A stretch of DNA of 64,000 nucleotides from the NCBI GenBank assembly GCA_029204225.1, contig CM055096.1:30452557-30516556 (forward strand). Direction: 5' to 3'. The DNA is from Diphasiastrum complanatum (taxonomy: Eukaryota > Streptophyta > Lycopodiopsida > Lycopodiales > Lycopodiaceae). The notes beneath the pieces are model-generated. The model was not told the origin of the DNA and did no database searches. It was given only the letters and a program-made list of their open reading frames with translations. The translations under genes and the position numbers were made by a program. Every line of letters starts with the position of its first letter. The first letter of the stretch is position 1. Positions 31,663 to 56,761 of the stretch are shown here, one piece after another.

Positions 31663-31670
31663 TATATATA
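31663..31670 (+). promoter_or_regulatory. Candidate TATA box of c1 LTR
   Basis: TATATATA about 340 bp into the LTR, in the place expected for the U3 promoter; by position and sequence only. Confidence 0.5.
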
Positions 31671-32006: not shown

Positions 32007-32018
32007 TGGTATCAGAGC
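32007..32018 (+). other. c1 primer binding site
   Basis: TGGTATCAGAGC immediately after the LTR, complementary to initiator-Met tRNA. Confidence 0.9.
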
Positions 32019-32817
32019 CTAAAGGCTGAAATGAGCTAAATCCTTGGTTTTCATTCAATTTGATCACAATTTTTGATCTAAATCTTGTGTAGATTGGATC
32101 TTAGCATCTAGTATTGATTCTAGAACTCAAAGTGAGTCAAATACATTGGAGATTGGTGTTGTGTGACTTCATTTGCAGGTGTTTAGGTGTCTAAAACCAG
32201 AGGCAAAGTTGAATTCAATTCACATGACCAAGATAGCAAGTTTTGCTTGCTCCAAGCATTGATTTCCAAGCGAGTTTTGGAGGTGATTTCATAGAGGAGG
32301 CTTTCTAGCATTCAAGGAGAGGGAAGATCAGAGTTTTGGGGACTCTTCAAGGCTGTTCTAAGGTGTAGTAGACACCTCCTAAAGTGATTTAGGTTCAGTC
32401 CAACCATTGCTTGACTTATGCACCACATTAGATCAATTTTTCATCAATTTTGATCATTTTTTGCTTGTGATTGGATAGTAGATTGTGTTGCATCCTCATT
32501 AAGTTCCATTTAGATCTTTTACAAGTGATTTTGGAAGTATATTAGGTTGCTGAAATTCACTCTTGATCAGATCATTTGGAAGCTTTAATGTTCTTTATAG
32601 AAAGAGGGGCAATTCTACTAGTATTGTCTACTTCAATCAAGCAAGTGCATTGTTTCTAGTATTCTATGATTTGATTTTGTTAGAGATCATTCTTAGATCT
32701 TTATAGGAAGTCTATTACTGATCTTTTCAGGTCCCTAAGAAGTGGGATAAGGTAGACCTTCAATCAAATCAATAGAAGTAACCTTCATTTGTGTCAAGTC
32801 CTTGATTAGGAGACTAG
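32019..32817 (+). other. c1 5' leader
   Basis: 0.8 kb AT-rich untranslated leader, no conserved frame. Confidence 0.75.
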
Positions 32818-36786: not shown

Positions 36787-36791
36787 ATAGA
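36784..36791. other. Left inversion breakpoint (c1 / c2 junction)
   Basis: The c1 stop TAG (36784-36786) is followed by one base and then by c2 LTR sequence from LTR position 58. The c1 polypurine tract and the first 77 bp of its 3' LTR are missing from the window. Joined ends share little homology. Confidence 0.8.
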
Positions 36792-37592
36792 ATATGTTGA
36801 TGATATGATTTCACACGTGTGGAGCATGTTCCCATGTGTGAAAGGATGTACTTTTCATGTTTGTATATATCCAAATTGATTTTGTATCATTCTAGTTAGT
36901 GTGAACATGAAATGACTAGTTTTTAGTCAAGTTGACTAGTCACCTACAAATTAGCTTTTCCTTGCATGTGCATGAGTAAATGCTCCCACATGGCAAGTGG
37001 ATGTTCACATGTGTGTATAGAGTACTAGAAGATAAGAGTTGACCATTTTCCTTAGATCCTATTTTGTAGGGAATATTTCTATATTCTAGGAGACTAGCTT
37101 TTTGGATTTTAGTCATATTCTAGAAGGTCAACTATTGGATAAGGATCAAGGATGGATCAAATGGATAGATATGAGTGATGTGGCACTCTTCACACGTGTG
37201 AAGGCCTGCTGGACTGTACCAGACTCATGGATGTACTTGATCCATAAAAGGATCATCATTTTGCTAAGAAAATTGATGAGACTTTTGCACTCTACACTTT
37301 TGTGAGATTTCTAGTCATTTGTCTTGTGATTTTTATGCATGATTGCTATCTAGTATCATTGTACTTGTTGTTTCAGGTGCAGGCCGTACAGTGGACAGTA
37401 CTCCACACGTGTGAAGCCGCTCTCACTAAAAAATGATGTGTTGATCCATTGCTCTTGCTTAAATCCAAGTGTAGTGAATCTAGATCAAGATCTAATGTGT
37501 AGAACTTGATAGATTCATTGATTAAGCAACCAATAACTCTCTATGATTGTAAAGTACAATCATTATTGTCCTAAAAACTGTAAAATTTATCA
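36788..37592 (+). repeat. 5' LTR of c2, lacking first 57 bp
   Basis: Matches 42241-43045 with one visible substitution. Three CACACGTGTG copies: 36812-36821, 37191-37200 and 37404-37413. Confidence 0.95.
37191..37200. promoter_or_regulatory. CACACGTGTG palindrome in c2 5' LTR
   Basis: Middle of three LTR copies; a fourth lies in the leader at 37756-37765. The matching 3' LTR sites are 42265-42274, 42644-42653 and 42857-42866. Confidence 0.5.
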
Positions 37593-37604
37593 TGGTATCA
37601 GAGC
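37593..37604 (+). other. c2 primer binding site
   Basis: TGGTATCAGAGC directly after the LTR end TTTATCA. Confidence 0.9.
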
Positions 37605-38189
37605 TAAGTAAGAGAGTGATCATTGAATCATAAATCTTGTAAAGATCATTGGCAAAATTTGTTTTTTGGCCAATACTAGTGAGGGCGAGTTCTTCTAGAG
37701 TGATAGCTTGTAATCATTTGGATCAAAACGACTTGGAGGCTGTGTATGTACTTTTCACACGTGTGAAACCGTACAGCAACTTTCAATTCAAGTTACTTTG
37801 TGTTTTTTGGTCCCAAAATCACAATACTAGTTCATTTTTGGTGCTTTTTGAAGCATAGTATTGATCTAGATTCATTCTAACTAATGCCTATGACCAAATA
37901 GTGTTTTGGATCATTGAAGCATTTCTTTTTAGAGTCTAAGATCAGATCTAAGAGGCTGATTTGTTCAGATCCTTAGTTGAAGTGAAATCTCTAAGAAAAG
38001 TGTAAAGCAATTTTTTTTTTGTGAGAGTGAAAGCTAGAAATTTTTGGTAAGATCTTTGAGTATCATTCAAGCTTGTGTGTTAGTTTGATAGAGACAAGCC
38101 TATAGGCATTCTAGTAAGCTTTAGGCCACTTCATAGATCTTTTAAAATTCAAAAATCTTTGTGATTTTTAAAAGAGCATTCATTCTAAA
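37605..38189 (+). other. c2 5' leader
   Basis: 0.6 kb, AT-rich, no conserved frame. Holds an extra CACACGTGTG at 37756-37765, followed by CCGTACAG as in the LTR. Confidence 0.75.
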
Positions 38190-41100
38190 ATGTCATCCAT
38201 GGGTGGATATTTGATGGAACCAAGTGAGAGACTCACTTCCACAAATTATTCCATTTGGAAAGTGAGAATGGAATCACTCCTAGTGATCCATGATCTATAT
38301 GACATAGTTCAAGGAGTAGAGGAAGAGCCTCAAACTCCCCAAGAACAAGCCAAATACAAGAAGAGAGCAAGATTAGCTCTACATTGCATAAAGTTAAATG
38401 TATGCAATGACCTCTTGAAAGAGGTGTCTTCTTGTACCTCATCCAAAGAGGCTTGGGATTCATTAAAGAGCATTTATGAATCCAACAATACTTCAAGAAT
38501 CCTCATGCTAAGAAATCAAGTTTTCCAAAGCATGAAAGGAAGTGGAGAGAGTGGACAAGAGTATGTTCTTAGGATCAAATCTCTTAACAAGGAGTTAAGT
38601 GCAATAGGAGAGAAGATCCAAGATCAAGAACTAGTACAAATCATTTTGAATGGTCTAAGTGATGAGTTTACCAACTTAGTCCAATCATTTGCCATTCAAG
38701 ACTCTCTTCCATCCATTGAAAAGTTGCACAATGTTCTTGTGGCCGAGGAGAGTAGGCTTCTACACCTCAAGACAAGAATGGATAGCATGTCACTTAATGG
38801 AGGAGAGGAGAAAGCTAACTTTACATCTAAAGGCAAGAAAAAGCAAAATCCATTCAAGAAAAATCAAGGCAAGGAGGCCGAGATGAAGAATGGAGGATCT
38901 ACCTCCAAAGGCAAAGTGAAGAACAAGGCAAAACTAAAGTGTTTCTTTTGTGGAAAGAAAGGACACTTTGCCTCAGAATGCTACTTGAAGAAGAATCAAC
39001 AAGCCAAAGGAGATCAAGGGGACATTGCTCAAGAGGAAGAATATGAGGATGGATTCAACACATCCTTAATGGTTGCATCTACACCAACTTCAAGTCAAGA
39101 CACATGGTGGATAGATAGTGGGGCTAGTTCCCACATGTCCTTTAACAAGCATTATTTTTCTACTCTTCTATCTTGTAATGACTCTAAGAAGTCAATATAC
39201 ACTGCTAGTGATCAAGCATGCAAGATAGATGGCATAGGATCTATACCTCTTTGTTTAGGCACATCTAAAAGGATAGATCTAGATAATGTTTTGTATGTTC
39301 CTACCATTTCAAGAAACTTGCTTAGTGTAGGACAATTAATGGACAATGGACTAGATGTACATTTCAAGAATGGAGTTTGTTCCATCTTGAAAAATGATAA
39401 GTGCATAGCTAGTGGCATTAAGCAAGGGAGACTTTTCAAGTTGGATGCTAATGTTGCAAGTGAAAGTGTGAACTTGGCTAGGGAGGAGCTAACTCAAGTG
39501 GAGCTTTGGCATAAGAGATTAGGCCATCCTAATCTTCAATCTATGGAGTCAATGGCAAGCAAGGAACTAGCTCTCGGCCTACCAAGAGCTTTCAAGAAGT
39601 GTGGAAAAATGTGTGAGGCATGTGGCCTTGCAAAGTCACACAAATCTTCTTACAAGAAATCTTCATCAAGATCTCTCTCTCCCTTGGATCTCATACATTC
39701 TGATGTACATAGTTTTTCACATGCAAGTAATGGAGGTGCCTTGATGTATGTAACTTTTATAGATGATTGTACTAGATTCACATGGATTGAGTTACTATCA
39801 AAGAAAAATCTTGTTTATGAAGCTTTCATTAAGTTCAAGTCTCTAGTAGAGAAACAACTTAGTACTTCTATCAAAGCACTAAGATGTGATAATGGAGGAG
39901 AGTACACCTCCAATAAAATGAAAGACTTTTGTGAGATCAATGGTATTAAGTTACAATACACTTGTTCCTACACCCCTCAACAAAATGGGGTGGCCGAGAG
40001 GAAAAATAGGAGTCTATGTGAGTGTGCAAAGTCCTTGAGGCTTGATGCATCACTTCCCATCTCATTTTGGGGAGAAGCCATAACATGTGCTAATTATTTG
40101 TGTAATAGACTTCCTAGTAGTGCTATAGATGGGATCTCACCTTATCAAGCCTTGTTTGATAAGAAACCCAATGTAAAATATTTTAAGATCTTTGGATGTA
40201 CTTGTTATGTACACATTCCTTTGGAGACTAGAAGGAAAGAAGATGCTACCTCCTTCAAAGGAATCTTTGTTGGCTATGGAGAAAATAGCAAGGGATATAG
40301 GATATATGATCCTACATCCAAGAAAGTAAAGGTAAGCAAGGATGTACTTTTTGATGAGTCACAATTTGCTAAGAGCTTGTCAAATGGATCTAACCCATTG
40401 TGCATTGAAGATCTTGACAAATCCGAGGAGGATCTTGACAAACCCGAGGAGGATCATGACAAACCCGAGGATGGAGATTTGGATCCAAGTCAAAAGGGGC
40501 CAAGAAGATCATCAAGGAGCAAGGCCGAGCCCTCAAGGCTTACCTATGTGGACAAGGGAAAGCAAAAGGAAGGCTCTACATCTTCTACCTCTTACTCTTT
40601 TTTAGCTACATTGATTGAAGAACCATCATCTTTTGAAGAAGCATGTAAATCTAAAGTTTGGAGAGATGCAATGCAAGTAGAGTATGATGCATTAGAAGAA
40701 AATCATACTTGGAATCTTGTAAATCTTCCAAGAGGAAAGAAACCACTTGCATGTAAGTGGATTTATAGAATTAAGTACAATCAAGATGGATCTATTAGTA
40801 AATACAAAGCTAGGCTTGTTGCTAAGGGATTTCTTCAAATAAAAGGATTGGATTATGAAGAAACATTTGCACCTGTAGCTAAGCTTGTAACTATTAGATT
40901 AATCATTTGCATTGCTACTTTGTTCAAATGGGATCTCTACCAAATGGATGTGACAAATGCCTTCTTGAATGGCTTCTTAGAAGAGGAAATCTACATGATG
41001 CAACCCGAGGGCTTCATCAAGATTGGTGAGGAGCAAAAGGTGTGCTACTTAAGGAAGAGCCTATATGGCTTGAAGCAAGCACCTAGAGCTTGGTACTCTA

Positions 41101-42170
41101 GGTTGCATGATTTTCTCTATTCCCTTGGCTTTGTACTAAGTGCTTATGAACCTTCTTTATATTTCAAATGTAATGAAGGAAAGATCATCATTTTGGTTCT
41201 TTATGTTGATGACATCATTATGACAGGAAATGATGATGATGGCATAGGCAAAGTAAAAGTTGACTTATCTAGTGAGTTCAAGATGGTAGATCTAGGCTTC
41301 CTAAAGTTTATACTTGGGATAGAAGTGTCTAGAAGTAGCAATTGTACTTTCATAAGTCAATCTAAGTATGCTACTTCCATTCTTGAAAGATTTGGTATGA
41401 AAGATTGTAAGGGGATTGACACCCCTATGGAGCATGTTGTGAAAGCAACTAATGAAGGTGATGAAGCATCCTTTGAGGACATCACTCTCTTTAGGAAGCT
41501 TATAGGCTCTCTAATCTATTTAACCATCACTAGACCTGACTTAAGTTTTTGTGTAAGCAAGTTGAGTCAAAGTATGCAAGCTCCTTTAATTCATCATTGG
41601 AAAAGTGCCAAGAGAGTACTTAGATATGTTTCTAGTACTAGATTTTTTGGTATACTTTATGAAGGATCTAACTTGCACTTGAGAGCCTACTCGGATTCAG
41701 ATTTTGCAGGTGACAAGATGGATAGGAAGTCCATTAGTGCATTTGCAACATTTCTTTGTGGAGGAGTGATATCTTGGCTTTCCAAAAAGCAAGATACAAT
41801 CTCACTATCTTCTTGTGAAGCCGAGTACAAGGCATTGACTTCAACAACCAAAGAGCTCTTATGGCTAAGAAGACTCTTGATGGAACTACATGTGCTAGAG
41901 GCCGAGGAGATCCCTTACATATTTTGTGACAATCAAGCTTCTCAACAAATTGCTTCAAATCCTATCTTCCATGCTAGAACAAAGCATATTGAGATAGCTC
42001 ACCACTTTGTGAGGGAGAAGGTACAATCCAAGGAAGTGCAACTACATCATGTACCATCATCCGAATGCATAGCTGATATCTTAACCAAACCATTGTCCAA
42101 AGATCCATTTTTTAAGTTAAGATATGCTCTTGGAATTGTAGATAGATGTACACTAGATTTGCCAAGTTAG
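38190..42170 (+). CDS. Ty1/copia gag-pol polyprotein of c2 (intact, 1326 aa)
   Basis: Single open frame from ATG 38190. Gag; CCHC knuckle CFFCGKKGHFASEC from residue 251; protease WWIDSGASSHM with D309; integrase D505, D567 and E603 (D-35-E spacing kept); reverse transcriptase YVDD at 1005-1008; RNase H SSCEAEYKAL near 1207-1216; C-terminal ADILTKPL. A short repeat of Asp-Lys-Pro-Glu-Glu-Asp type lies between integrase and reverse transcriptase (nucleotides 40411-40470). Domain order integrase before reverse transcriptase defines Ty1/copia. All catalytic residues that I checked are present. With nearly identical LTRs this element was probably able to move until the inversion removed the start of its 5' LTR. 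Confidence 0.95.
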   Translation: MSSMGGYLMEPSERLTSTNYSIWKVRMESLLVIHDLYDIVQGVEEEPQTPQEQAKYKKRARLALHCIKLNVCNDLLKEVSSCTSSKEAWDSLKSIYESNNTSRILMLRNQVFQSMKGSGESGQEYVLRIKSLNKELSAIGEKIQDQELVQIILNGLSDEFTNLVQSFAIQDSLPSIEKLHNVLVAEESRLLHLKTRMDSMSLNGGEEKANFTSKGKKKQNPFKKNQGKEAEMKNGGSTSKGKVKNKAKLKCFFCGKKGHFASECYLKKNQQAKGDQGDIAQEEEYEDGFNTSLMVASTPTSSQDTWWIDSGASSHMSFNKHYFSTLLSCNDSKKSIYTASDQACKIDGIGSIPLCLGTSKRIDLDNVLYVPTISRNLLSVGQLMDNGLDVHFKNGVCSILKNDKCIASGIKQGRLFKLDANVASESVNLAREELTQVELWHKRLGHPNLQSMESMASKELALGLPRAFKKCGKMCEACGLAKSHKSSYKKSSSRSLSPLDLIHSDVHSFSHASNGGALMYVTFIDDCTRFTWIELLSKKNLVYEAFIKFKSLVEKQLSTSIKALRCDNGGEYTSNKMKDFCEINGIKLQYTCSYTPQQNGVAERKNRSLCECAKSLRLDASLPISFWGEAITCANYLCNRLPSSAIDGISPYQALFDKKPNVKYFKIFGCTCYVHIPLETRRKEDATSFKGIFVGYGENSKGYRIYDPTSKKVKVSKDVLFDESQFAKSLSNGSNPLCIEDLDKSEEDLDKPEEDHDKPEDGDLDPSQKGPRRSSRSKAEPSRLTYVDKGKQKEGSTSSTSYSFLATLIEEPSSFEEACKSKVWRDAMQVEYDALEENHTWNLVNLPRGKKPLACKWIYRIKYNQDGSISKYKARLVAKGFLQIKGLDYEETFAPVAKLVTIRLIICIATLFKWDLYQMDVTNAFLNGFLEEEIYMMQPEGFIKIGEEQKVCYLRKSLYGLKQAPRAWYSRLHDFLYSLGFVLSAYEPSLYFKCNEGKIIILVLYVDDIIMTGNDDDGIGKVKVDLSSEFKMVDLGFLKFILGIEVSRSSNCTFISQSKYATSILERFGMKDCKGIDTPMEHVVKATNEGDEASFEDITLFRKLIGSLIYLTITRPDLSFCVSKLSQSMQAPLIHHWKSAKRVLRYVSSTRFFGILYEGSNLHLRAYSDSDFAGDKMDRKSISAFATFLCGGVISWLSKKQDTISLSSCEAEYKALTSTTKELLWLRRLLMELHVLEAEEIPYIFCDNQASQQIASNPIFHARTKHIEIAHHFVREKVQSKEVQLHHVPSSECIADILTKPLSKDPFFKLRYALGIVDRCTLDLPS

Positions 42171-42171
42171 A

Positions 42172-42183
42172 AGTGAGGAGGAG
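42172..42183 (+). other. c2 polypurine tract
   Basis: AGTGAGGAGGAG immediately upstream of the 3' LTR, overlapping nothing and two bases after the pol stop. Confidence 0.85.
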
Positions 42184-43045
42184 TGTTGAAAATTGTCACT
42201 TCTCACTTGACATTGGTTCATGTAAATATTGATCAAACATTAGAATATGTTGATGATATGATTTCACACGTGTGGAGCATGTTCCCATGTGTGAAAGGAT
42301 GTACTTTTCATGTTTGTATATATCCAAATTGATTTTGTATCATTCTAGTTAGTGTGAACATGAAATGACTAGTTTTTAGTCAAGTTGACTAGTCACCTAC
42401 AAATTAGCTTTTCCTTGCATGTGCATGAGTAAATGCTCCCACATGGCAAGTGGATGTTCACATGTGTGTATAGAGTACTAGAAGATAAGAGTTGACCATT
42501 TTCCTTAGATCCTATTTTGTAGGGAATATTCCTATATTCTAGGAGACTAGCTTTTTGGATTTTAGTCATATTCTAGAAGGTCAACTATTGGATAAGGATC
42601 AAGGATGGATCAAATGGATAGATATGAGTGATGTGGCACTCTTCACACGTGTGAAGGCCTGCTGGACTGTACCAGACTCATGGATGTACTTGATCCATAA
42701 AAGGATCATCATTTTGCTAAGAAAATTGATGAGACTTTTGCACTCTACACTTTTGTGAGATTTCTAGTCATTTGTCTTGTGATTTTTATGCATGATTGCT
42801 ATCTAGTATCATTGTACTTGTTGTTTCAGGTGCAGGCCGTACAGTGGACAGTACTCCACACGTGTGAAGCCGCTCTCACTAAAAAATGATGTGTTGATCC
42901 ATTGCTCTTGCTTAAATCCAAGTGTAGTGAATCTAGATCAAGATCTAATGTGTAGAACTTGATAGATTCATTGATTAAGCAACCAATAACTCTCTATGAT
43001 TGTAAAGTACAATCATTATTGTCCTAAAAACTGTAAAATTTATCA
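42184..43045 (+). repeat. 3' LTR of c2 (862 bp)
   Basis: TGTTGAAAATTGTCAC...TTTATCA, followed by target copy CATTG. Three CACACGTGTG sites. Confidence 0.95.
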
Positions 43046-43377
43046 CATTGTTGCTTCTCAATCTATTAAGGAAGTGTTTTGGTTGAGAAATTTGCTGTCA
43101 GACATCAATATGTATCAGTACAGCCCTACAATTTTATTTTGTGAGAATCAAAGTGTTATTGCCTTATCGGCCAACCCTAGATTTCATTCTAGGAGTAAGC
43201 ACATTGAGATCAGATATTACTACATCAGGGGCAAGGTTCTCGATAGAGAGATTAACGTACTGCAGAACACAGGACATGGTTGCAGACATCTTCACGAAAG
43301 CACTCAATGTTACTACACACAACAGATTTTGTGCATTGCTCAGTCTGAAGATCAAGGCATTCATGGATCCAAATTAA
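43046..43377 (+). pseudogene. c3 copia RNase H C-terminus
   Basis: Begins inside RNase H (VASQSIKEVFWLRNLL, then ENQSVIALSANPRFHSRSKH) and, after a frameshift near 43255, continues to the conserved end (VADIFTKAL). It continues the c3 coding sequence on the minus strand at 56767: across the shared CATTG the frame joins as ETEYI then VASQSIK. The piece is therefore the inverted 3' end of c3. Confidence 0.85.
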
Positions 43378-44400
43378 GGGGGGGGGTGTTGGATTTATTC
43401 CCTCTAGCTCTCCTAAATCCCATTTTAATCTGCCTCCATTCATGCTGCATATTTACTAACGTTGTCACGCAGTCTGTATATTTACATGCAAATTCGCACA
43501 GACGAAGAAAAGACGAAAGAATTGTGACACTGTGTTTCTACACAGTTCAAGGTGACAGGCGAAAAGGGAACACTATCTTACAGAATGTCAAAAGTGTCCT
43601 AAAAGCTTAAGGCACCCTATAAATCTTATCCTAAGGCCATTTGTAAGAGTGACGCACTTTTTGCATCATCACCAACGTTCACTTCAGCACTGGCTGACGT
43701 CGCATCCTTTTCACGCTCACCTCATGCAGTTGCGCTAACAAATTGGACAACGATCGTAGCCACCCACGTCAAACCAGTTTGTCCTGGTTTCTTAGCTCGT
43801 GCTCTCTACAATCCTCATCCGAAAATTATAAGATCTCCTACAGACAGCACATCCACTTTGTACTTTCACATCTACACACATGTAATATTCTGTAATATAT
43901 ATATACTGGACACCATTTGTGTAAAAGATGATAAGGAGATCAGAAGAAGACGACATAAACGAAGTAGATGCCTTGAGCATTGATTCTTCATTTTGTCAGA
44001 ATCAAGGTTTAATTCTTTTTTACGGATTGAAATAAGCTTTGTAGGGCACGCAGTTTCGTCCACTACTGTATTGTGCTCTACCGCATTATTGACATGTATA
44101 CATGATATACTTAATCTGATACAGTTCATTGTTTTGCGTTCAGATCTATGTTAATATTGCTATACTTATCTTTCATTCTGTTTGACCTTTCTAGTTGTTC
44201 TTACTTGTAATATGCGATTAACATTTAATCTTGTCTTTCACGAATCATTCGCGACTAATTATCAGTCGAGCACAGTCTAGCTCTTCGCGAATCATTCACA
44301 ACATATGATTTGTCTTGTTATTCGTGACAAATTATTCTTTTGGCGCTTCATCTATTAATGTTTGGCTACGTAATCTAAAATGACCGTGATTTCTATCACT
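43378..44400 (+). repeat. c3 polypurine tract and 3' LTR (right limit uncertain)
   Basis: G-run 43378-43386 followed by TGTTGGATTTATTCC at 43387, the expected LTR start. No second copy of this LTR is in the window, so its end cannot be set; TATATATATA near 43899 could be its promoter. A 28-bp tandem repeat (GTTCGAGTTCGTTTCTCG) follows at 44481-44536. Confidence 0.6.
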
Positions 44401-44570
44401 AAAGTTCTGTCATTCTGATAGGCATAGTTATGCTTACGGAGGGAGTCGTATAGTTCATTCCGCTGCACACGAACATTTTTGTTCGAGTTCGTTTCTCGTT
44501 CGCTTCTTGTTCGAGTTCGTTTCTCGTTCGTGTTCGTCATTTATTTTCCCCCTCTCTCTCCAACAAGGCC

Positions 44571-44961
44571 TTGGAGGCCATGATCGAAAAATCTAAAGCC
44601 TATGAAAAAACTTTGCCTACAAAGGAGGAATTTTTGGAATTCCAAAAAAAATATCCCCCAAGGCCTAGATATATCCCCTCCAGAAATGTAGAGGTCATTG
44701 GAAAACATGACATTAGCAGACAAACGTCATTGATTACGATGATTATGATCTGGTACGTAGATATTATATTGGTATTGGTATTGATATTGTTTAGTTTTCT
44801 TATTGAGTTTGCAGTGTTATGTATAATTCTAAATTTATTTATTTTTTTCGGTTACAGGATGCTATTGAAATAGATGCCTTTGGTATGAGACATGGAGGCA
44901 ACCATGGTGTACCAGCCAAGAGAAAAGATGTGTCTCTATTTTATTATTTGAAACACTTTTA
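44571..44961 (+). pseudogene. Two-exon gene remnant, unknown
   Basis: A basic, lysine-rich peptide (MEAMIEKSKAYEKTLPTKEE) is followed by a plausible intron (donor GTACGTAG at about 44753, acceptor TTACAG at 44859) and a second exon (DAIEIDAFGMRHGGNHGV). Exon 1 and exon 2 are out of frame as they stand; an Asp/Tyr-rich alternative frame at the end of exon 1 would fit exon 2. Probably a decayed gene, possibly part of the neighbouring transposon. I do not recognise it. Confidence 0.35.
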
Positions 44962-45342
44962 AAATAATGAGAATTGCGTATATCAGTCATCTTTTAATCC
45001 ATATGCAACCACTGTTATTATGGGCATCAAATAATTAGGAGGCCATAAGTACACAAGATGAACATATAAAATAATTTTTGTGAAATGAGATTTGGCTATT
45101 AAGATATTGAGTTATACTCCCAATGAGACTACAAAAAGATCATTTGCAATGGCCCTTTATTCGGGTTGAATCTTGAAGAGGATGATGATGATAATTAAAT
45201 TTTTTGTAATAGATTTTTGATATATTACAAGGATCTCTCTTTTGTTATGAATTTGAATCCTTTCGAAATATTCTAATACTTGGCGAGTTTTTAGCTTGAT
45301 ATCTAAATTGTGCTCTTCTAGAAAATCACTGAAAAAGTTGAA
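44962..45342. other. Unassigned AT-rich sequence
   Basis: No gene or repeat terminus seen. Confidence 0.4.
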
Positions 45343-46890
45343 CTAAATATTTATTTTTGAATTGTGTCCTCCATGATTTGTTGCTTTATGAAATGCTCCC
45401 CTTGCTTGCCAATGAGATTTTACCATGCCTTGTGATGACCAGATACTTAAGCTCTCATATTCCTTTGCAAAGTAAGTTGCATGATGAAGAAGGATGTGCT
45501 GCAAACAATAGTTTTGATTAGTTTTGAGAAAAGTACCAGACAATTATATAGATTAGCACCATGTAATGAGTAACGTTGTCTTTTTCCCAACAATCACGTA
45601 CAAATTTTACACATGTAGTGCAATGATTTTGCAAAGTCCTCATATCTTCTGATGATAGGTTTTCTTTCCTGATAACACCTATGAGTTTGTCTAAGTTGGT
45701 CTACACTTGTCCCTTTTCCACTCGATTACTTCTTTCCAGTGTTCGTGTGGCTTGAACAATTTCTCTCCAAATTTCGTATCTGACACTTGATTCTTTGCAT
45801 GTGTGATTAAAGAAGAATCTTCTTTAGCACCTCCAATTGATGGCTTATTAGGAACGTTTCTTTTTTTCCCGGAGAGTCTGTCACTTTTTTCAATCGTGAC
45901 ATTCCCTTTATGCAGTCCTGCATTTGACATAACTATTTCCAACCTCCTAATTGCTGCTTTGGCCACAGACTCCGGTTTATGATTCCATGCTAGTAAAATA
46001 TGTAGGTAAATAAGTTTTTCAATAATACGAACCTCAGCATGCAATGTGCATATGTGAACATATTTTAATGAAATTGGCTAGACACTTTTCATATTTGGAT
46101 CTTCAGCTTCTCGTGTTGGGCCAGTGTTTGTTGATCATCCCAAATTCATATTGTAGCAATCCTTCATGCAATAAAGACATGGATGCTTTGATGTTGTCCC
46201 ATGAGGGACATTATACATATATTTTAATGTTTTCAAATCCCCTGCAAGGTGCCATTGAATTTGAAAACTTCCAGGGTTTTCGACTGTAAATTTCTCACTC
46301 TCCAAATGTCTCTTTATAATGTCGCCATAATTTGTTCTTGAAAATATCCATGAAAGTATTTTATGGTCCTCTTTCAAGACCTGTAGAAAAACAAGTAATG
46401 CATGCCGCCAACAACCATATGTGATTTTTCGATTGAACACTAAACGTTCGATCATTTGTATCTGCAATTTTGTTCATCAAAGTGAACTCACTCGTTCCAA
46501 CCCTTGATGATTTCAGATTCGTCCAATTTTATTATAATAATGATCTTTCCATTTACTTAATGTTCGTCTAGTTTATAGAATTGAATAATGTATTTTAGAA
46601 CATTTTCAATATCAAAAAAAATATTATTGCAATCGTTGTAATTGAGCTCATCATATTTAGATTTGTATAATTCAGTTATACGAAGTATTTGGCCAACTAC
46701 TTTGAACATTCCTTCATTATAAAAATTTCTAGATGATCTTACTCGATATGGACGCGGAAGATAAATTTTCTTCACTATCACTTGGGAAAAAGCTTCTTTA
46801 ACTATTCTAAAAAAAAGTAGAATAAGCATTTTTGCTAATTCCAGATACATCACATGCACCTTGTATCACATTCGCATCCAAGTATGATTG
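45343..46890 (-). pseudogene. DNA-transposon-like protein, several exons
   Basis: Minus-strand coding blocks in order: 46890-46557 (GACDVSGISKNAYSTFF, a frameshift, then LPRPYRVRSSRNF), 46467-46135 (WHLAGDLKTLKYMY then SKHPCLYCMKD), 46044-45691 (HKGNVTIEKSDRLSGKK) and 45520-45343 (SLSIWSSQGMVKSHWQARG then HGGHN). Gaps between blocks look like introns. The GDLK...PCLYC block and the final S.W..QGME.SH block resemble large uncharacterised eukaryotic transposon-type proteins, with a zinc-binding Cys pair; I cannot name the family with confidence. At least one frameshift makes this copy dead. It seems to have inserted in the S element's pol region. Confidence 0.5.
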
Positions 46891-47150
46891 AACTTTAATC
46901 AAAATAGTCTCCACAATTTCATTTTTCATTTTTTTCAGATCGAACATTTTTTATCATCTCCTTTGCTGACTTTCTTGGTAAAACATGACTTAAAGATGAT
47001 CCAATGCATAAACGATCTGTTAAATAGTTTTTTGCCACCAAACATGATCTGCAACAAACATATGAAACTCAAATTATGTTTAATAAATTAATAATCCATG
47101 TTATCAAGTGCAAATCAACTTAAATAACATATACAAATCAAATAAACAAT
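46891..47150 (-). other. Unassigned, likely intron of the transposon-like gene
   Basis: AT-rich stretch between the coiled-coil exon at 47151 and the exon ending at 46890; nothing else recognised. Confidence 0.3.
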
Positions 47151-47948
47151 CTATATGATAACATATTTGAATGCTCGAATTCTTTTTTTCTGATTGCCGC
47201 TATGTGTAGATAAGTCATCAATATTCTTCATCGGTACTCTCTTTCTTTTCCTCTTCACCATTGCCTTATTGATAACTTTTATATCAACAGTAGATTTTAA
47301 ACTCTCGGATCGCAACTTTTCCATTGTTTTCAACACTGTGTGTTGCACATAATGAAACAATTGTTGATTTGCACGTTGCAATTGTTGATTAGTAAACTGT
47401 AATTGTTGATTAAGACAAGATATGCTATGCATTCCAATATCACGCAACCTTTGACAATATCCAAGTAATCTGCTATTTCTTTCACATACATATTTAAGAA
47501 GATGAGTTACGGACTTAAAATCTAGGTTGAGCTCCTTGAGCTCTGCATCAGCACTTGGATCCATCTTTGATGTAGAAGTTACAGGCAATGTTGGCTCCAT
47601 TTGATCCCGTGTCAGCTGATTTGTCGCTACTGGCTGTCCTTCATTAAAGAGGTGAATGAGATTGGGAGGGATGGTTGGCTCAGGTTCAGTTGTGTCATTC
47701 CTTTCTAATTGGTCCCCTGGCATAGCTCTGATGATGCAAGGTCTTTTGCCATTATATAATAACACAAGGTTAACCCATTTTGCCAAGAAGGCCACCACGT
47801 GTTCGTTAAACCAGCTTGGTCCCAAGATAGCATCGAAAGCATCCATCTTCAAAATTGTGAACGTTAATCGATTTTTCCAGGTGCCCAGCAAGATTGGTAA
47901 GTTGGTTGCCAATCTACAGGTTGTCATTGTACCTATCGCGGTCTCCAC
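47151..47948 (-). CDS. Chimeric frame: S protease C-terminus joined to coiled-coil exon
   Basis: 265-aa frame. The N-terminal part is the end of a gypsy retropepsin and its linker (ILKMDAFDAILGPSWFNEH is the conserved ILG...WL block). From about residue 125 (near 47575) the sequence changes to a Gln/Asn-rich coiled coil (QQLQFTNQQLQRANQQL) ending in a basic KRKRKRV patch. The second part probably belongs to the transposon-like gene on its right-hand strand continuation (45343-46890). Whether any fused protein is made is unknown. Confidence 0.5.
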   Translation of the reverse strand: METAIGTMTTCRLATNLPILLGTWKNRLTFTILKMDAFDAILGPSWFNEHVVAFLAKWVNLVLLYNGKRPCIIRAMPGDQLERNDTTEPEPTIPPNLIHLFNEGQPVATNQLTRDQMEPTLPVTSTSKMDPSADAELKELNLDFKSVTHLLKYVCERNSRLLGYCQRLRDIGMHSISCLNQQLQFTNQQLQRANQQLFHYVQHTVLKTMEKLRSESLKSTVDIKVINKAMVKRKRKRVPMKNIDDLSTHSGNQKKRIRAFKYVII

Positions 47949-48909
47949 ACAAATAGGGGTCGCATTTTCTTCACATTAAATGCCCAATTCCCCTGCCAGG
48001 CTTTCTGACAAGTAGTTATGCGATGCTCCCATGTCTACCATGAAGTGAATGATCTTGTCTTGGATACAGCCTTTCAGGTACAATAACTTTGATCCTCTCG
48101 CAGGAGTCGCTATGAGATGTTCACGATAAGCCGCAAGTGCCCCTATTTGTTGTAAGGCATTCAGGTCAGACTCCGTCAAATCCGTTTTTGGGTCTTCTTC
48201 GTCATCATGTTCACCATCTTCTTGATCAAATGCCTCTCTTTCCATCCTATCAAGTACCTCGGTCGCCTCCATGATTTGTTTGTTCAATGGCTTGGGGCAT
48301 GACCTCCAAGAGTGACCTTGCATGACAGTTAAAGCAACGCATGGAACTGTCCACCGTTGGTGAGTTGTTGCTGTGACTAGCTGAAGGTCCAACGTTGTTC
48401 CTTCTCTAAAAGTGTTCCCTCCATTGTTGCCTTGGTTGCCAAACCCTGTTTTTGCTGGGAATTTGTTCACGCTACTCAAGGCTTGGTTGCCATTTAAAGC
48501 TAAGTCCCCTCTTGAAAAGAAGCTTGGACTCGGTCTGGATCCACGAAATACTCTTGTTGAGGTTTGAGGAAGCAGTTGGTGCAATGTGGTCTCATAATTG
48601 CAGACCATTTCAGCCGACCGAATAGTTGAATCGAAGTCATTAGTCATTGGGCATGTAGTTGTCTATTGCTCGTCGGGTCCAAGATTGCATTCCAGACAAC
48701 AGATAGTGGGTCTTGTCAGCCTCGGACATATCTTCAATAATCCATACACTCTGTCTGAATTTATTTAGGTACTATCGCAATGAACCTTTCTTCTTGAGTC
48801 CTGATAATTCTGTTTCCAATCTCATGTGTGAATCCTTAGGTATGAACTCCTCTCGTAACGCAGTTTTGAACGCGTCCCATGTCTGGAACTGCATTTCTGC
48901 CACCCAATA
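47949..48909 (-). pseudogene. S-family gag C-terminus and protease (continuation of 28768-29297)
   Basis: Minus strand from 48904: gag core (WVAEMQFQTWDAFKTALREE), several stops and frameshifts, then 48647-47976 with a decayed zinc knuckle (MQGHSWRSCPKP) and a retropepsin start VDMGASHNYLS (about 48040-48010), where the usual DSGA/DTGA has Met. A stop lies just before 47949. It is the second half of the S gag that begins at 28768; the target copy TATTG (CAATA at 48905-48909) abuts the R LTR. Confidence 0.8.
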
Positions 48910-50057
48910 TGTAGCGCAAGCATCCCAAAGGGAGCCGGGAACCACGACTTAGCTTCCTAGCCTTCAACTCTTGCCATCCAAACCCACTTGACATACAAAC
49001 AGCCAACTCGCCAACAACGATCAGACTTAACCAACTTGAAGTTCCGAAAATCAACATTGAGATCCAACCTGGCGCCATGCCAGATCGGGGTCCCGATGTG
49101 GGTGACTTCCCTCCAAGCAAGCCGCCCGACATACATCAAACTTAACCAACTCGAAGCTTCGTTACAAACGAGTAACATCCATTCCAAGCAAGCGGTCTGA
49201 CTTACATCAGACTTAACCAACTGAAAGCTTCGTCACGAGCGCTGGAAGCCAACCTGGCGCCACGCCAGACTGGACAGCCATAAACAGGTAACATCCACCC
49301 AAGCAAGCCATCCAACTCAGCCGACAGCTTAGAGCCCGTTCCCCAAGAGCTTAACCCATTCACGTTCATGCAAGGAACACTCAGAACCACAAGCCGCGAC
49401 AGATATGGAAACAACCAGTTCCTGGACCAAATGGTCCCGACTACATACCGCTGGCGCCACGGACCGAATGGTCCCAACGGCATACCGCTGGCGTCCCGGG
49501 ATACGACCCTCAACTATGTGCCAAGTTAAAAATTTTGAAAGCGACCTTACAACTGGCGCTTTTACCGAACACTGAAACCCAGAAGGTAATCAGAGTCAGT
49601 TTGAGAAAAATCCCACTTTATTGATAAATCTGAGAAGGTTACATTTCAAGTGTGTGACCGACCCTAGTCTCCGGGGCGCTAGCATGCCAAGGCGAGAGCC
49701 ATGACAACATTCCAGCAAGGGAGGCTGAGACTTGGTTGGAGCTCGCCCTGAGTCGCAACCCGCACTCCCCTATAGTATTGGTGTGATTCGGCACCCCCCC
49801 TCATACCAAGCACTCTACCCAAGCTGGTAAAGCACGTTTTTCTCTCTCTAGGATTTTTTCTTTCTAGAAAGTCATTTTCTCTCTCTAGATTTTATTGATC
49901 CCCAGGCTTTCTTTAATCATGCCTAGATCGTGCGAGGTGATTGCACATCGATCTGAGCTCTCTGGACTCCGCTAGAACCGATCAAAGATTTTCAGCCATA
50001 GGAACTTGGCGCCGGTTGGATTCTGGTCACAGTGGCGCCGGGAGCAGCAGGGGCGTT
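48910..50057 (-). repeat. R 3' LTR, right part (1148 bp)
   Basis: Continues the R LTR begun at 31034-31089, now inverted. It ends GCGCTACA at 48910 and is cut at 50057 by G, with target copy AACGC (50053-50057, minus). Confidence 0.9.
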
Positions 50058-50415
50058 TGTAATAGATCCTAACACCACAGTAGGGCAAACACTAACTCAT
50101 CCACCCAACCTTGCCTACTCCCTGATATAGAGTAAGCCCGTCCTAGCCCAATGTGAGGACTGGTAGCATGCTACTGCCAAGTGTCGGCCACGTGGCACTG
50201 ACGTGGCCGACTGCACGTCGGGACCCAACTGGGGGCCCTATCCTGCTGACAGGGTCCCTAGGCTGTGTAAGGCCCGCCATGGCTATGGACCGTGCTGGGG
50301 CACACTACTCACACTGTCTTGCCCTGTTGGTCATGTACACTGGACACGACCCTGACTGTGGTATCTGACCTATCTGTGTTCCCTAGGGTTCAGCACTGGT
50401 TACGAGCTCGTAACA
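50058..50415 (-). repeat. G 3' LTR (358 bp)
   Basis: Minus strand TGTTACGAGCTCGTAACC...ATTACA. Flanked on the outside by AACGC and on the inside by the polypurine tract. Confidence 0.95.
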
Positions 50416-50431
50416 CTCCCTCCCCCTTAAG
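50416..50431 (-). other. G polypurine tract
   Basis: Minus strand CTTAAGGGGGAGGGAG directly upstream of the 3' LTR; it overlaps the last codons of the chromodomain frame. Confidence 0.85.
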
Positions 50432-51407
50432 AACCGTCTTGGTCCTCTAAGACAAAGTCTGGAAAAATCTTGCGAAGGACGCTGCCTCTTTCCCAAGTGG
50501 CATTCTCAACAGGCTGATCATTCCACTTAACCAGATATTCTCGGTATAGAGTATGATGAGTCTGCGTCTCTCTACTATCAAGAATTTCCTCTGGTTCATG
50601 TGGAGGTTGTTGAGGATCCAATGGGAGAACTAGAACACTGTCCCCTACCAGATTATCTGATCTGGTTAAGGCTTTTCGTAACTGACTTACATGAAAGACT
50701 GGAAAAACCTTACTGCTGTGTGGGAGTTCTAGTTCATAGGTGACCTCGCCTAGTCTCCTACTGATGGTAAAGGGACCACAATACCTTGGAGACAACTTAG
50801 CACACACTCCTGATTTGAGGGTTTTAGAGTCAACTGGGACTCTCAAGTAGACTTTCTCACCAGTGGAGAACTGTACATCCCGTCTGTGTGGATCTGCATA
50901 ATGCCTGGCTCGATCCTGGGATTGTCTAATGCTACGCTTAGCATGTTCTATCATCTGGTTTAGGTCTTCTAAAAAGTTTCTGGCTGCTTCAACTTTTTCT
51001 TGTTTAAACCCTACAGCTGTGGGTGAGCGTGGCTGAAAACCGTACATCAGCATAAATGGGCTGTATCCCGTAGCTGAATGTTTGGTACTGTTTTGAGCAA
51101 ACTCTAATATTGAGAGATACTCCTCCCAATTAGTCTGCCTCTTGCTGACGTATGCACGAAGCATATCCTCCAGCACTTGATTTACCCTTTCTGTTTGACC
51201 GTCCGTCTGTGGATGGTCGGTGGTACTCATATTAAGTTTAGTATGGAGATGATGGAATACTGCCTTCCAAAAATTTCCAGTAAACTTACTGTCCCGGTCG
51301 CTGACTATGCCGGAAGGTAGACCGTACAATTTAAATAGCCCGTCTACAAACAACCTCGCTAACTCTGGAGCTCTAACGGTTGTTTTGGTCGGAATAAAAT
51401 GAGCCAT
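50427..51407 (-). pseudogene. G integrase core and chromodomain
   Basis: 326-aa frame: integrase core with the second Asp (VSDRDSKF, about residue 38) and Glu (TDGQTERVN), exactly 35 residues apart, then the C-terminal integrase region (KLSPRYCGPFTI) and a chromodomain (EYLVKWNDQPVENATW). Its upstream continuation (GLPKTQKSNDAIWV) is in this frame, but a deletion of about 28 bp near 51480 has removed the block with the first catalytic Asp and shifted the frame. The integrase is therefore broken. Confidence 0.9.
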
Positions 51408-51459
51408 TTTGGTCAGACGGTCAACTGTGACCCATATAGCGTCATTACTCTTTTGGGTT

Positions 51460-52407
51460 TTAGGCAGGCCTACTATTACCAGCTAGTATTTCTAAGGGAT
51501 GCAACAACCCTCCTGCCTTTAAACGCTCTGCTTTAGTTACTTGACATTTCTGGCAACTGGTTACATACTGGTGGACGTCCTTTTTCATACTGGGCCAGAA
51601 AAATTGCCTACGAAGAAGCTCATAGGTCTTCTGTATGCCTGGGTGTCCCGCGCTAGGATTGTCATGACATTCATATAGGACCTGCTGCCTATAATCCTCT
51701 GAATTGGGGACACATACTCTATCTCTATAGAGCAAGTACTCATCCTGAATGGAATACTGTTTCCAATTGAATCCTTGAGTCAACTGACCCTCAACCACTG
51801 GGGTTTGCTTGGGTAATACAGGCTCAGAATCCTCAACGTCATCTGACGACGTATACTCGGACTCATCATCATCCTCAACGAAAGCTGCCGTATTCTTGGA
51901 TGAACTGGCACCAGCCCCGGGAACTGGTTCTGGAGTCTGTAACTGTCTGTTCTGGACTGAGTTCCAGATAATAGAGAAGAATACATCATGCTGGCATTTC
52001 CCTCTCAAGGACTCGAGTAACTCATTACGAATCTGAGTAAAACTCAGCTCGTTTATCATAGGCATTCTGCTAAGGGCATCTGCTACTGTATTGAATTTTC
52101 CACGCCTATATCTGATAGACGTGTCAAACTCTTGCATCAACTCTGCCCAACGAGCTTTCCGACCTCTAAGCTCAGGTTGATTGCAAAGGTATCTGAGACT
52201 CTCATGGTCTGTCAGGACCTCAAAGTTGGCACCATACAAATAATGCCTCCAACTCTTAAGGGCATGGACTATAGAAAAGAGTTCCTTTTCATAGGCACTG
52301 TACCTAGTCTGAACTGGCTCGAGTTTTTTACTCTCGAACGCAACTGGTCGTCCACCCTGAGTTAGCACAGCGCCTACTGCAAAGTCGCTAGCATCAGTTT
52401 CGACCAC
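51460..52407 (-). pseudogene. G RNase H and integrase zinc-binding domain
   Basis: 315-aa frame in phase with the upstream gag-RT frame, from which it is separated by one TAG near 52483. RNase H begins ETDASDFAVGAVL, continues VLTDHESLRYL and NTVADALSR. An acidic linker precedes the HHCC integrase domain (HDNPSAGHPGIQ, then SCQKCQ). It ends by frameshift at LEIL, where the integrase core should begin. Confidence 0.9.
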
Positions 52408-52482
52408 AAATGGCTGATTGGGGTCGACGACTTTTAAGACTGGTGCTGTAGCTAAGGCTGTTTTGAGAGCATCAAAGCTCTC

Positions 52483-55188
52483 CTATTGTGCAGACTCCCA
52501 AATGAACTCCTTTCCCTTCCCCTTAAGAAGATTTGTCATAGGGACTGCTATCTGAGCATATTCCTTGACAAATCGTCTGTAATATCCCGCCAGACCAAGA
52601 AAGATTTGAAGTTCCAAAATATTCTGAGGTCTCAGCCAACTGAGTATGGCTTTAACCTTATTTGGGTCCATCTTAATCCCATCTGAAGAGATAATGTGAC
52701 CCAAATATGCTACTTCTTCAACGAAGAATTCACACTTGGATTGTTTAGCATAAAGCTTATGCTTTCTAAGCAGTCGAAACACCTTTCTGAGGTGTTTTAG
52801 ATGCTCCTTCCTCGTTTTGCTGTAAACGAGGATGTCATCTAAGAATACGACTACAAACTTACCCAAGTATGGTCTGAGGACACTGTTCATCAAGGTCATA
52901 AAGGTAGCTGGAGCATTTGTGAGCCCAAATGGCATCACCTTAAACTCATAATGACCGTGACGAGTCCTAAAAGCTGTTTTCGAGACATCTTCCGATTTTC
53001 TACGGACTTGATGATATCCCGATCTGAGGTCTATTTTGCTGAAAAACTTAGTCCCGTCGAGTTGATCAAACAACTCGTCTGCCCGAGGCATAGGGTATTT
53101 ATTCTTAATTGTGACTTTATTGAGGGCTCTGTAATCTACGCAAAGACGCATAGACCCGTCCTTCTTTTTCACCAATAGGACTGGTGAGGCCCATGGTGAA
53201 GTACTGGTCTGAATTTGGCCTTTCCCAAGATAGTCTGTTAACTGCCTAGTTATTTCTTCATCCTCTGTTCGGCTGACCCGATACGGAGGTTTAGAAACAG
53301 GTGCTGTACCTGGTACTAGGTTTATTACATGATCTACCTCTCTGCTCGGTGGTAAACCATGTGGCAAATCTTCAGGAAAAACGTCTTTAAATTTAGACAA
53401 TAAAGTTTCTAATTTACTGATTTTCTGCTGAATAGAACTGGAAATAGAAACTTCAGGAATAAACTGAAAGTCACATAAGAATACCTGATGGTCTTCGTCT
53501 CCGATTAGCTGACAGAGTTCTGAACTGCAGACCATAGGGCTGTTGGGAACATCATGCTCCCCATGCAACTGGATCTCTCGGCCTTTGTGCTGAAAGCTGA
53601 GGGTGTTCTCCTGATAGTTTCTGTGGAGGGAAGGTCCTAAACTGTAGAGCCAGTCTCTCCCGAGAACAATGTCTGTTCGATCCAGGTGCATTATCTGAAA
53701 GTTTATTTCATCTTGGTACCCCTGAATACCAAGATTTAACTTACTTACCATATTTTCCCATATTTTTTTATCTTCACCCTTAGCTAATGAAACTATGTAC
53801 CTATGCTGACTAGGTACTTCTGGTAGTTTAAGCTTTTTAACCAGGGTGTGGGTGATGAAATTATGGGTTGCCCCATCATCAACCATGACTCTTACTAACT
53901 GGTTACCAACTTTCCCATGCATACGTACTAGGTCATGCGGCCCAAAACTGAAGGGTCTTGCTAGCATTGCAGAGGTCAGCTGGCAACAGTGTTCATGATC
54001 TTCATGATACACTTTGATCTCGGAAGCTGCCGAGTCACTGGGGAAACATACAGTCTGAACAAGATGAACTTGTTTTTTATCTTTCTTATCTTTTTTAGTG
54101 AAAGGCCCCTTGGGACACTGTCTGACTGTGTGTCCCTTGCCCATACACACAAAGCACAAACGTTCTTGTTTGGCTTTCTCAAAATCATCTGGTTTTAAGG
54201 GCTGTATGAGTGAAGGGCGTTTCTGAGGAGCTTCACCTTTAAATTTATCTTCTTTCTTTATTTTTAAAAATTTCTTTTTAAATTGAAAGTCTTTCTGAGG
54301 AAGCTGCTCCGAAAGTGGTTGTTGTCTCGCTCTCTTCCTACCCACTGAATCATCATAGATTTGAGCATATCTGAGAGCTTGCTCAAGGGTAGTAGGCGAG
54401 TTTCTCTGGACCTCTACTTTATATTCATCTTTGAGGCCACGGACAAATCCCCTGATTTTTTGATAGTCATCCATATTTTTAATCTTTAAAATTGCTTCTC
54501 GATACTGCGAGATATATTGGATGAGGGATTTATCCATTACTGTTCTTTCCCAGGCTTCCCAGGCTCTATCCAGTTCATTCTCTGGTAGAAATTCTCTTAG
54601 GAAAGCTTCTTCAAAAGCTTTCCATGACCGGGGAGTCTGCCCAGTCTCCTGGAGATTTAACCACCACTTATAGGCCATGGGCCCTAAGGAAAGACTGGCC
54701 TCAATTGCTTGCAAATGGTCAGGGGTCTGTTTAAGAGCATGAATGTTCTTCCATTTGCTGAGGAAGGTTTGTAGAATATCTGCATTTCTATCCTTCTCTT
54801 CCCCATTAAAAGTAGGAGGCTTTAAATCTTTAAAAACACTGGGGTGAGACCGTAAAGTCTCACCCGAAACTGATGGAAGTGGAGAAGGGGATAACTGAGA
54901 AGTGGAGGGAAGGCTTCCTTTCGCGGAACTCAAAATCAAGTTTTTGAGTTCAGCGAACGAGTCGTCCACACTGGACTTGAAATTGGCTAATGCCAACTTC
55001 AGTTCATCCACTTCTGTTACCAATTGGAGGAACTGCTCCTTGGTAACCAGTTCGTCGAGTTCTTCGGTGAACTGTTCCTGTTCTTCTACTTCCATGGGTT
55101 CCTTCCCTTTTCTGTAAGCCAAGGCTTCTGTTTCAAGTTCGTCGAAGCCTCTCTCCGGGGGTTGATCAGGTCCCTGAGGAGTGGTCAT
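52483..55188 (-). CDS. G gag-protease-reverse transcriptase (901 aa, stopped by TAG)
   Basis: ATG at 55188. Gag with a Retrotrans_gag core (about 115-260), zinc knuckle [14 protein letters not shown] from about residue 344, retropepsin [11 protein letters not shown] near 434 (DDGA in place of DSGA/DTGA) and ILG-type VLGRDWL, then reverse transcriptase with [22 protein letters not shown] and catalytic FLDD near 780. A single TAG ends it between reverse transcriptase and RNase H; the same frame then continues open. It would make virus-like particles and cDNA, but the RNase H would be missing unless the stop is read through. Confidence 0.9.
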
Positions 55189-55976
55189 CTTCGGAACTGA
55201 AAGAGAGCTACCTTAACTTCTGAAGGAAAAAAAGTCTAAAAGACTAATTTACAACTGTACAAGGAGGGAAAGAAAACTTAGCTCTTTCTGAGAACTGTAC
55301 TTCCACAGAGAGAATCAAGAAAAGCCCTTTCAGCTCTTCCTCCACTGCTTTCAGATCTGCTGTCCGGAAAAATCAGAGATCAAGGTACCAAGAAAAAGAA
55401 ACAAACTTCTGATCGTCTTGGCCCCTTCCCTCGCTGTCTGAGGTGTATACCTTGTGCTCCAAAATTCCCGTTTTAGGACCCAAAAACAGTTGCAAACTTG
55501 TGGTTTCTGCCAAATACCTTCCTCGCTGCCTGACCAGGAGTGTTGCTACTTGGTTTTGCTTACTTTGAGACCCAAAATCCCTCTCAAAATCTGATTTTCT
55601 AGCAACACCTTCAGCGCTGGACCTGCACCCAAGATTCTGTCTCAGATCTGCTCCAAATTCCAGAAAATTTCACTCCAAATTCGAAGTTTCCACCCAATTT
55701 GGCAGCGCTGGACCTGCTCCACGTTTTCTATTTAAAATGTGCTCAAAAATCCAAAATTGATACATAAAAATCAAGGGTAAATCCCTGATTTTTCAGCGCT
55801 GAGCCTCTACAAGGGATTGTGCCTCAAACAACTGTAAATTCCCAGCAAATTTCAAGGATTTGAAAGCTGTTCCCACAGCGATTTTCCTCCTCAATTCTTT
55901 CTTGAGAATCTGAGAATCTTTCCTATCTTCTGATAGCTTTCTCTACTACTGTCCTGAAGTCCCTAGGATGGAGATA
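55189..55976 (-). other. G 5' leader
   Basis: 0.8 kb untranslated leader, shared with the truncated G at 1681-2601. No coding function. Confidence 0.8.
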
Positions 55977-55988
55977 GCTCTGATACCA
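55977..55988 (-). other. G primer binding site
   Basis: Minus strand TGGTATCAGAGC, one base after the LTR end; initiator-Met tRNA. Confidence 0.9.
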
Positions 55989-55989
55989 G

Positions 55990-56117
55990 TGTAATAGATC
56001 CTAACACCACAGTAGGGCAAACACTAACTCATCCACCCAACCTTGCCTACTCCCTAATATAGAGTAAGCCCCTCCTAGCCCAGTGTGAGGACTGGTAGCA
56101 TGCTACTGCCAAGTGTC
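55990..56117 (-). repeat. G 5' LTR, right part (128 bp)
   Basis: Ends ATTACA at 55990 and is cut by c1 at 56117, where GACAC (minus) is the second target copy. Confidence 0.9.
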
Positions 56118-56722
56118 TGTAAAAATTACAGCAAATAAGGATCATAAAACACTTGAAATGATGAGGGAAACAATAGATTATGATTTCATAAGATTAGCAC
56201 AAGTTGAACCATCAAAATCCATCAAAAATCTATGCTTGAACCTCACTAAATGGCCCAAATCCTTGAAGAAGGCTTCACACGTGTGAAAGTACGGCCTCCC
56301 ACAGTTTGAGTACTGTACACCAGACCTACATTCAATCCTATAATCATTAGTAATCACAAGTACTCAAACAATTATGAACATAGAGAGCAATTGCACCATT
56401 ATGAGAGAAAAATCATGAAATTGCTTGATTAATTTTGGTGAGATATCATCACCTATATATACATGATCCATCACGGTTTTGGACAGGTATGAGTAGCCCT
56501 AAACCTATCCCTAATGCTAATTTTGGTGGATCTTTCATCCCTACCAATTTAGGGTTGGAATCTTGGAGATCCCTCAACAATGCAAAAATTACCAAAAATA
56601 GCTCCTATTTTTTCTCCCTTGTATCTAAGCATAATTTGGACTCATTCCAAAGGTTCTAACACTTAGGTCTACTTGAGAACATCCTTATGAATGGAATCCT
56701 ATGCTATTTGGCACGTGTGACA
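56118..56722 (-). repeat. 3' LTR of c1, lacking first 77 bp, inverted
   Basis: 605 bp that match 31402-32006 with about three differences. It carries CACACGTGTG at 56276-56285. At 56722 it joins the tip of the c2 LTR. Confidence 0.9.
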
Positions 56723-56761
56723 CATGAACCAATGTCAAGTGAGAAGTGACAATTTTCAACA
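56723..56761 (-). repeat. Right inversion breakpoint: first 39 bp of the c2 5' LTR
   Basis: Minus strand TGTTGAAAATTGTCACTTCT and onward equals 42184-42222. It follows CATTG (56762-56766, minus) in c3 and ends at the c1 LTR with about one base of microhomology. Confidence 0.85.

Follow-up and report, generated by a model that had tools for sequence, protein, structure and literature searches.

The DNA examined here is a stretch of 64,000 nucleotides of Diphasiastrum complanatum (GenBank assembly GCA_029204225.1, contig CM055096.1, positions 30,452,557 to 30,516,556 of the forward strand; hereafter the window, numbered from its first base), crowded with nested long terminal repeat (LTR) retrotransposons. 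Four of these elements, named R, G, c1 and c2, straddle the ends of a segment of about 20 kb and appear to have been split by its flip, pieces of each now being found inside and outside the segment in opposite orientation (Table 1). R is hosted by the gag region of a further element, S, whereas c1 lies in an LTR of G and c2 in a copia remnant called c3. Both c1 and c2 showed the organization of Ty1/copia elements, with gag, integrase, and then the RVT_2 reverse transcriptase in one open reading frame (ORF), LTRs of the TG...CA type, and a 5-bp target-site duplication (TSD) whose two copies match in inverted sense. Of 371 relatives of the c2 protein, the 120 listed showed 31 to 42% identity, with Cichorium, Rhynchospora, and Vigna among the named sources; for c1 residues 830–1322, identity in the 120 listed out of 5915 was up to 50%, with Taxus among the sources. 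The best of 35 relatives found for the G protein had 42% identity over half its length. Searches against Rfam gave no matches at the gathering threshold.

Table 1. Coordinates of the split elements, their hosts, the joins, and the target-site duplications. Positions are those of the window; "segment" is 36788–56722.
Feature	Position	Strand	Details
R LTR, first 1143 bp	48910–50052	+ by LTR numbering	inside segment
Remainder of R	29298–31089	-	LTR stub 31034–31089 (56 bp), internal part, truncated other LTR 29298–29772; outside segment
G, chromodomain gypsy element	50058–56117	- (ORFs)	one LTR 50058–50415 and 128 bp of the other LTR 55990–56117
Other 235 bp of the split G LTR	31090–31324	+ (by G ORFs)	outside segment
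c1, Ty1/copia	31325–36787	+	5' LTR 31325–32006; gag-pol ORF 32818–36786 (1322 aa); 3' LTR remnant 56118–56722 (-)
c2, Ty1/copia	36788–43045	+	5' LTR positions 58–862 (36788–37592); gag-pol ORF 38190–42170 (1326 aa); 3' LTR 42184–43045
S gag piece (host of R)	29098–29295	+	outside segment; alone, no Pfam gag match
S gag continuation	48777–48906	-	inside segment; Retrotrans_gag E = 7.8e-5, 23.3 bits, just below the 24.1 cut-off
c3 (host of c2), RNase H continuation	43050–43253	+ at present	
c3 copia remnant, integrase to RNase H, frameshifted	56763–59221	-	outside segment; cut at 59221 by a solo R LTR
Join B	36778–36796	+	c1 coding end (stop codon 36784–36786 and one base) to c2 LTR position 58
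Join A	56712–56733	-	c2 LTR 1–39 to c1 LTR 78 onward
Chimeric LTR	56118–56761	-	c2 1–39 and c1 78–682; flanked by exchanged TSDs CATTG / GACAC
Inverted segment, favoured reading	36788–56722		19,935 bp; basis: LTR pieces, TSD match, and coordinate test
TSD of R	TATTG 29293–29297	+	partner CAATA 48905–48909 (-)
TSD of G	AACGC 31085–31089	+	partner GCGTT 50053–50057 (-)
TSD of c1	GACAC 31320–31324	+	partner GTGTC 56113–56117 (-)
TSD of c2	CATTG 43046–43050	+	partner CAATG 56762–56766 (-)

The TSDs of the four elements carry a trace of the flip. All eight 5-mers listed by a first-pass annotation of this DNA were found where it had placed them, and the pairs TATTG/CAATA, AACGC/GCGTT, GACAC/GTGTC, and CATTG/CAATG matched as reverse complements only, never directly, in four cases out of four. 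A match in inverted sense between two random 5-mers of the window has a probability of 0.00128 (400,000 pairs), corresponding to about 2.7e-12 for the four jointly. Outside the segment, the copia element c4 (21874–27444) showed the direct TSD GGTCC, and a solo R LTR integrated in c3 (59222–60414, minus strand by LTR numbering) showed the perfect direct TSD CCATG, which was absent at the first boundary tried and appeared after its start was shifted by 2 bp to TG. Neither a direct nor an inverted TSD was present, at the boundaries tried, for an R copy (3362–8352), for either of its LTRs considered alone, or for the G LTR 2615–2971; these are uninformative either way and were left out of the control count.

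The LTR pieces of the split elements are complementary as well. The two pieces of the R LTR, 1143 bp at 48910–50052 and the reversed 56 bp at 31034–31089, add up to 1199 bp. With the G LTR numbered along 50058–50415, the sequence at 55990–56117 corresponds to positions 1–128 and the reversed 31090–31324 to positions 124–358, the overlap being the 5-bp TSD; the restoration of a 1199-bp R LTR and a 358-bp G LTR by reversal of the segment, as claimed in the first-pass annotation, was thus reproduced. The c2 LTR of 862 bp (42184–43045) has positions 1–39 of its other copy reversed at 56723–56761 and positions 58–862 at 36788–37592, positions 40–57 being missing, and the other copy of the 682-bp c1 LTR (31325–32006) retains only positions 78–682, reversed, at 56118–56722. 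The target site of c1 can be seen unoccupied in two G LTR copies, that at 2615–2971 and the other LTR of G itself. Apart from this, the R copy made up of 29298–31089 and 48910–50052 carries an internal deletion, its first LTR being complete when both pieces are counted and its second retaining only about the last 475 bp beside the TSD.

In addition, the reading frames of two host elements continue from one side of the flip to the other. At the R site, the S gag sequence ...NWY resumes as YWVAEMQF on the opposite strand, and at the c2 site the c3 sequence ...IETEYI resumes as IVASQSIKEVFWLRNLL, the common Y and the common I lying in the respective TSDs. In a tblastn search with c1, c3 could be followed along the minus strand to 56736 (residues 1073–1220) and along the plus strand from 43056 (residues 1214–1280); Pfam gave no relevant match for the left S piece or for the c3 pieces at the c2 site. 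As S gag meets a stop 45 codons further on and c3 is frameshifted elsewhere, the frames across the joins continue locally only, and the in-frame joins previously reported for S gag and the c3 RNase H hold in this restricted sense.

In a coordinate test, the TSDs alone demanded one break within 31325–43045 and another within 56118–56761. They bracket the breakpoints only, and the exact joins therefore rest on the LTR pieces, so the earlier view that the inversion is read out from four split TSDs was right about their inverted sense in all four elements, but by themselves they do not fix the breakpoints. At join B (36787/36788), microhomology was 0 bp, with TAGA on either side, and the only match to the join sequence in the window at up to three mismatches was the join itself, whereas join A (56722/56723) showed 1 bp of microhomology, both values in line with the little microhomology already described. 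The c2 element has lost 18 bp (LTR positions 40–57) and c1 at least 77 bp, again as proposed before; as 13 bases separate the stop codon of c2 from its 3' LTR, the c1 loss can be refined to probably about 12 + 77 = 89 bp. Microhomology of 0 and 1 bp together with small losses at both joins are signatures of end joining. A scan of viral_contigs with the c2 LTR stretch spanning the lost 18 bp gave 0 matches, in a collection that may omit records of this genome.

Every LTR and TSD piece is explained by one inversion of 36788–56722, and the inversion of about 20 kb postulated in the first-pass annotation was borne out by the inverted TSDs of all four straddling elements, the complementary LTR pieces, and the local continuity of the frames. 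Judging from the sequence, we consider it likely that two canonical copia insertions, c1 and c2, were followed by a single inversion of this segment whose ends were joined. At the start, c1 (plus strand, in the G LTR) and c2 (minus strand, in c3) would have faced opposite ways, with about 20 kb between them. Both would then have suffered a double-strand break or gap, c1 where its 3' LTR begins and c2 at the corresponding point of its 5' LTR, and resealing with the wrong partners would have inverted 36788–56722. End processing would have cost c2 18 bp and c1 probably about 89 bp. The expected products are a chimeric c2/c1 LTR at join A and, at join B, a fusion of the c1 coding region to a c2 LTR without positions 1–57. 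The inverted arrangement and both join sequences are direct observations; that there was one event, that its ends were joined in this way, and that the related LTR starts determined the sites are inferred. Two other histories were rejected: neither a present order that is ancestral nor a composite c1–c2 copy inserted as one unit in that order fits flanks that read GACAC and CATTG, with no common TSD, and in both cases R and G would have stayed unsplit.

Regarding its age, the inversion of 36788–56722 splits c2, the LTRs of which differ at 1 of 844 positions, and it would therefore be younger than c2 and recent. The corresponding differences were 4/605 for c1, 5/647 for c4, 6/390 for R, and 10/363 for G, the latter count including the 5-bp TSD overlap twice. 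From the nesting, R is older than G, and the LTR point estimates are opposite to this, not significantly (p = 0.31), whereas the divergence of G versus c1 agrees with the nesting (p = 0.011); for c1 versus c2, the p value was 0.17.

Under this reading, both breaks sit at the start of related LTRs in opposite orientation. The top local match between the c1 and c2 LTRs involves c1 1–124 and c2 1–122, with a score of 50 (mean 29 and maximum 42 in 500 single-base shuffles), and the bases missing from c1 (about -12 to 77) and from c2 (40–57) lie in or touch this best-matching block. For two breaks placed at random, the probability of hitting such matched inverted blocks is about 5e-5, and, given the first, the second would do so in 0.75% of cases, both figures being post hoc. 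The motif CACGTG was found at LTR position 83–84 in c1, c2, and c4. Since the breaks are in or touching matched LTR starts of about 120 bp and the flip yielded one chimeric LTR, its TSDs exchanged, the previous attribution to end joining rather than LTR–LTR recombination was correct in that the joins look end-joined and too strong in what it set aside. We read the event as end-joined, its sites perhaps being set by the similar LTR starts, either because these paired or because they share a fragile feature. Only tentatively would we suggest the more general idea that diverged LTRs of different copia families steer the exchange of breaks, the conserved start block with its CACGTG acting as a pairing or break-prone site and the ends being sealed by end joining; if true, this would define a homology-placed, end-joined inversion, between classic LTR–LTR recombination and random end joining.

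Several observations weigh against the account given above. The probability calculated for the LTR coincidence is post hoc and therefore only a hint; the c1 and c2 LTR starts are loosely alike, with a longest exact run of 9 bp at matched positions, and exact runs of 12 bp or more exist between both LTRs at unmatched positions (e.g., c1 512 / c2 79). The LTR start of c4 matches those of c1 and c2 better (scores of 66 and 65), yet c4 is uninvolved. As the R copy at 3362–8352 lies outside the segment and has no TSD, not all outside elements are clean controls. Finally, a flip of about 24.1 kb (32007–56117) through homologous recombination between two inverted c1 LTRs restored all four TSD pairs equally well in the coordinate test, a possibility that the first-pass annotation did not mention. 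Under such a flip, G would previously have held a solo c1 LTR with GACAC on both sides, and c3 a c2 whose 5' LTR contained a captured c1 LTR-plus-internal piece replacing 18 bp, acquired, for example, from a one-LTR circle, which would put both ends of the c1 piece side by side, or from cDNA taken up at a break. The inverted c1 LTR stretches, 605 bp at 99.3%, would be a good substrate for homologous recombination, but at least three events would be required (solo LTR, capture without a TSD, and inversion) versus one, and the loss at matched c1/c2 positions would remain to be explained. We regard this less parsimonious flip as unlikely and prefer the inversion of 36788–56722, in which one event leads back to two ordinary elements, c1 in G and c2 in c3.

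An artefact in which the segment was merely placed in the wrong orientation by the assembly, with no biological inversion, is conceivable in such a repeat-dense window, where the 605-bp inverted c1 LTR pair or the R LTR stretches, inverted and 98% alike, could mislead a short-read assembly. However, assembly mis-joins normally occur inside repeats, whereas both joins are resolved to the base, reciprocal, and non-homologous, with small losses, and join B has no counterpart elsewhere in the window; an error within the c1 LTR pair, for its part, would not account for the composite c2/c1 element that remained. These features make a mis-join improbable. Even less credible is a clean homologous crossover between the c1 and c2 LTRs followed by secondary deletions. 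The opposite orientation, the matched LTR position, the exchanged TSDs, and the single chimeric LTR would all suit it, but neither join contains a crossover, for which reason it was rejected as a full account: join A skips c1 up to position 77, join B is without the whole c1 LTR start, and two independent deletions would each need to span the crossover point, in LTRs whose exact identity at matched positions is as short as noted above.

Some further features of these elements and of the window deserve mention. The near-identical c1 LTR stretches at 31325–32006 and 56118–56722 (605 bp aligned), in opposite orientation and 24.1 kb apart, are a possible substrate for further flips. The LTR starts of c1 (31325), c2 (42184), and c4 (27444) are conserved over about 120–180 bp across three copia families, and of the 11 occurrences of the palindrome CACACGTGTG in the window, 10 are within c1, c2, or c4 LTR copies. 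G and R copies also form a second cluster, at 1540–8352 (G LTR 2615–2971; R LTRs 3362–4580 and 7152–8352), which includes a 252-bp tandem duplication at 5882–6399. An ORF at 8249–9337 (362 aa) starts inside the R LTR at 7152–8352 and matches DUF659 weakly (E = 1e-8, 35.4 versus 34.7 bits). Tandem repeats occupy 10537–11181 and 12403–12901; they comprise an array of 5.7 copies of a 111-bp unit, the dinucleotide CT repeated perfectly 45 times, and a 154-bp array.

The nested LTR elements constitute an ordered, base-resolved record of a recent inversion for which an outgroup is not needed; if the inversion were overlooked, annotation would probably report truncated elements here, along with a c1–c2 tandem that is not real. 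No published account of this locus was found in the open-licence literature, an absence that says little. The case raises the question of whether end-joined rearrangements in plant repeats fall at corresponding sites of related inverted LTRs above chance.

Comparable reconstructions have been described, and the likenesses and differences given here hold for the parts of these papers that were available. REANNOTATE also deduces non-transposition rearrangements from the structure and order of elements; there, TSDs are unchecked and better detection of inversions is named by its authors as future work (PMC2672092). In the maize p1/p2 region, rearrangements were likewise rebuilt from nested LTR elements and a TSD, with end joining invoked, the events described being a large insertion and a duplication and not an LTR–LTR inversion (PMC2686159). 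In einkorn, the duplication and inversion in the centromere of chromosome 2A were attributed to RLG_Cereba elements; as here, the 5-bp TSDs of plant LTR elements diagnose rearrangement between copies, and an inversion was traced to their recombination, but in einkorn recombination took place within one family and the duplicated units measure about 700 kb (PMC10447253). Inversion 2z3 of Drosophila buzzatii, generated by ectopic recombination between Galileo elements, resembles the present case in its related, oppositely oriented elements at both breakpoints, exchanged TSDs, and a chimeric element at a breakpoint (PMC2775673). In 2z3, both copies are chimeric, belong to a single subfamily (GalileoN), and have the crossover located within 141 bp (PMC2775673), whereas the inverted elements at the Diphasiastrum breakpoints belong to two copia families, only join A is chimeric, both joins were apparently end-joined with loss instead of showing a crossover in homology, and the span is 20 kb. 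In conclusion, this is a small, recent rearrangement of an ordinary and already known kind, in which elements of opposite orientation border an inversion and have exchanged their TSDs, yet located unusually well; its new twist is that the LTR pair comes from different families and that the end-joined breaks lie at matched positions.

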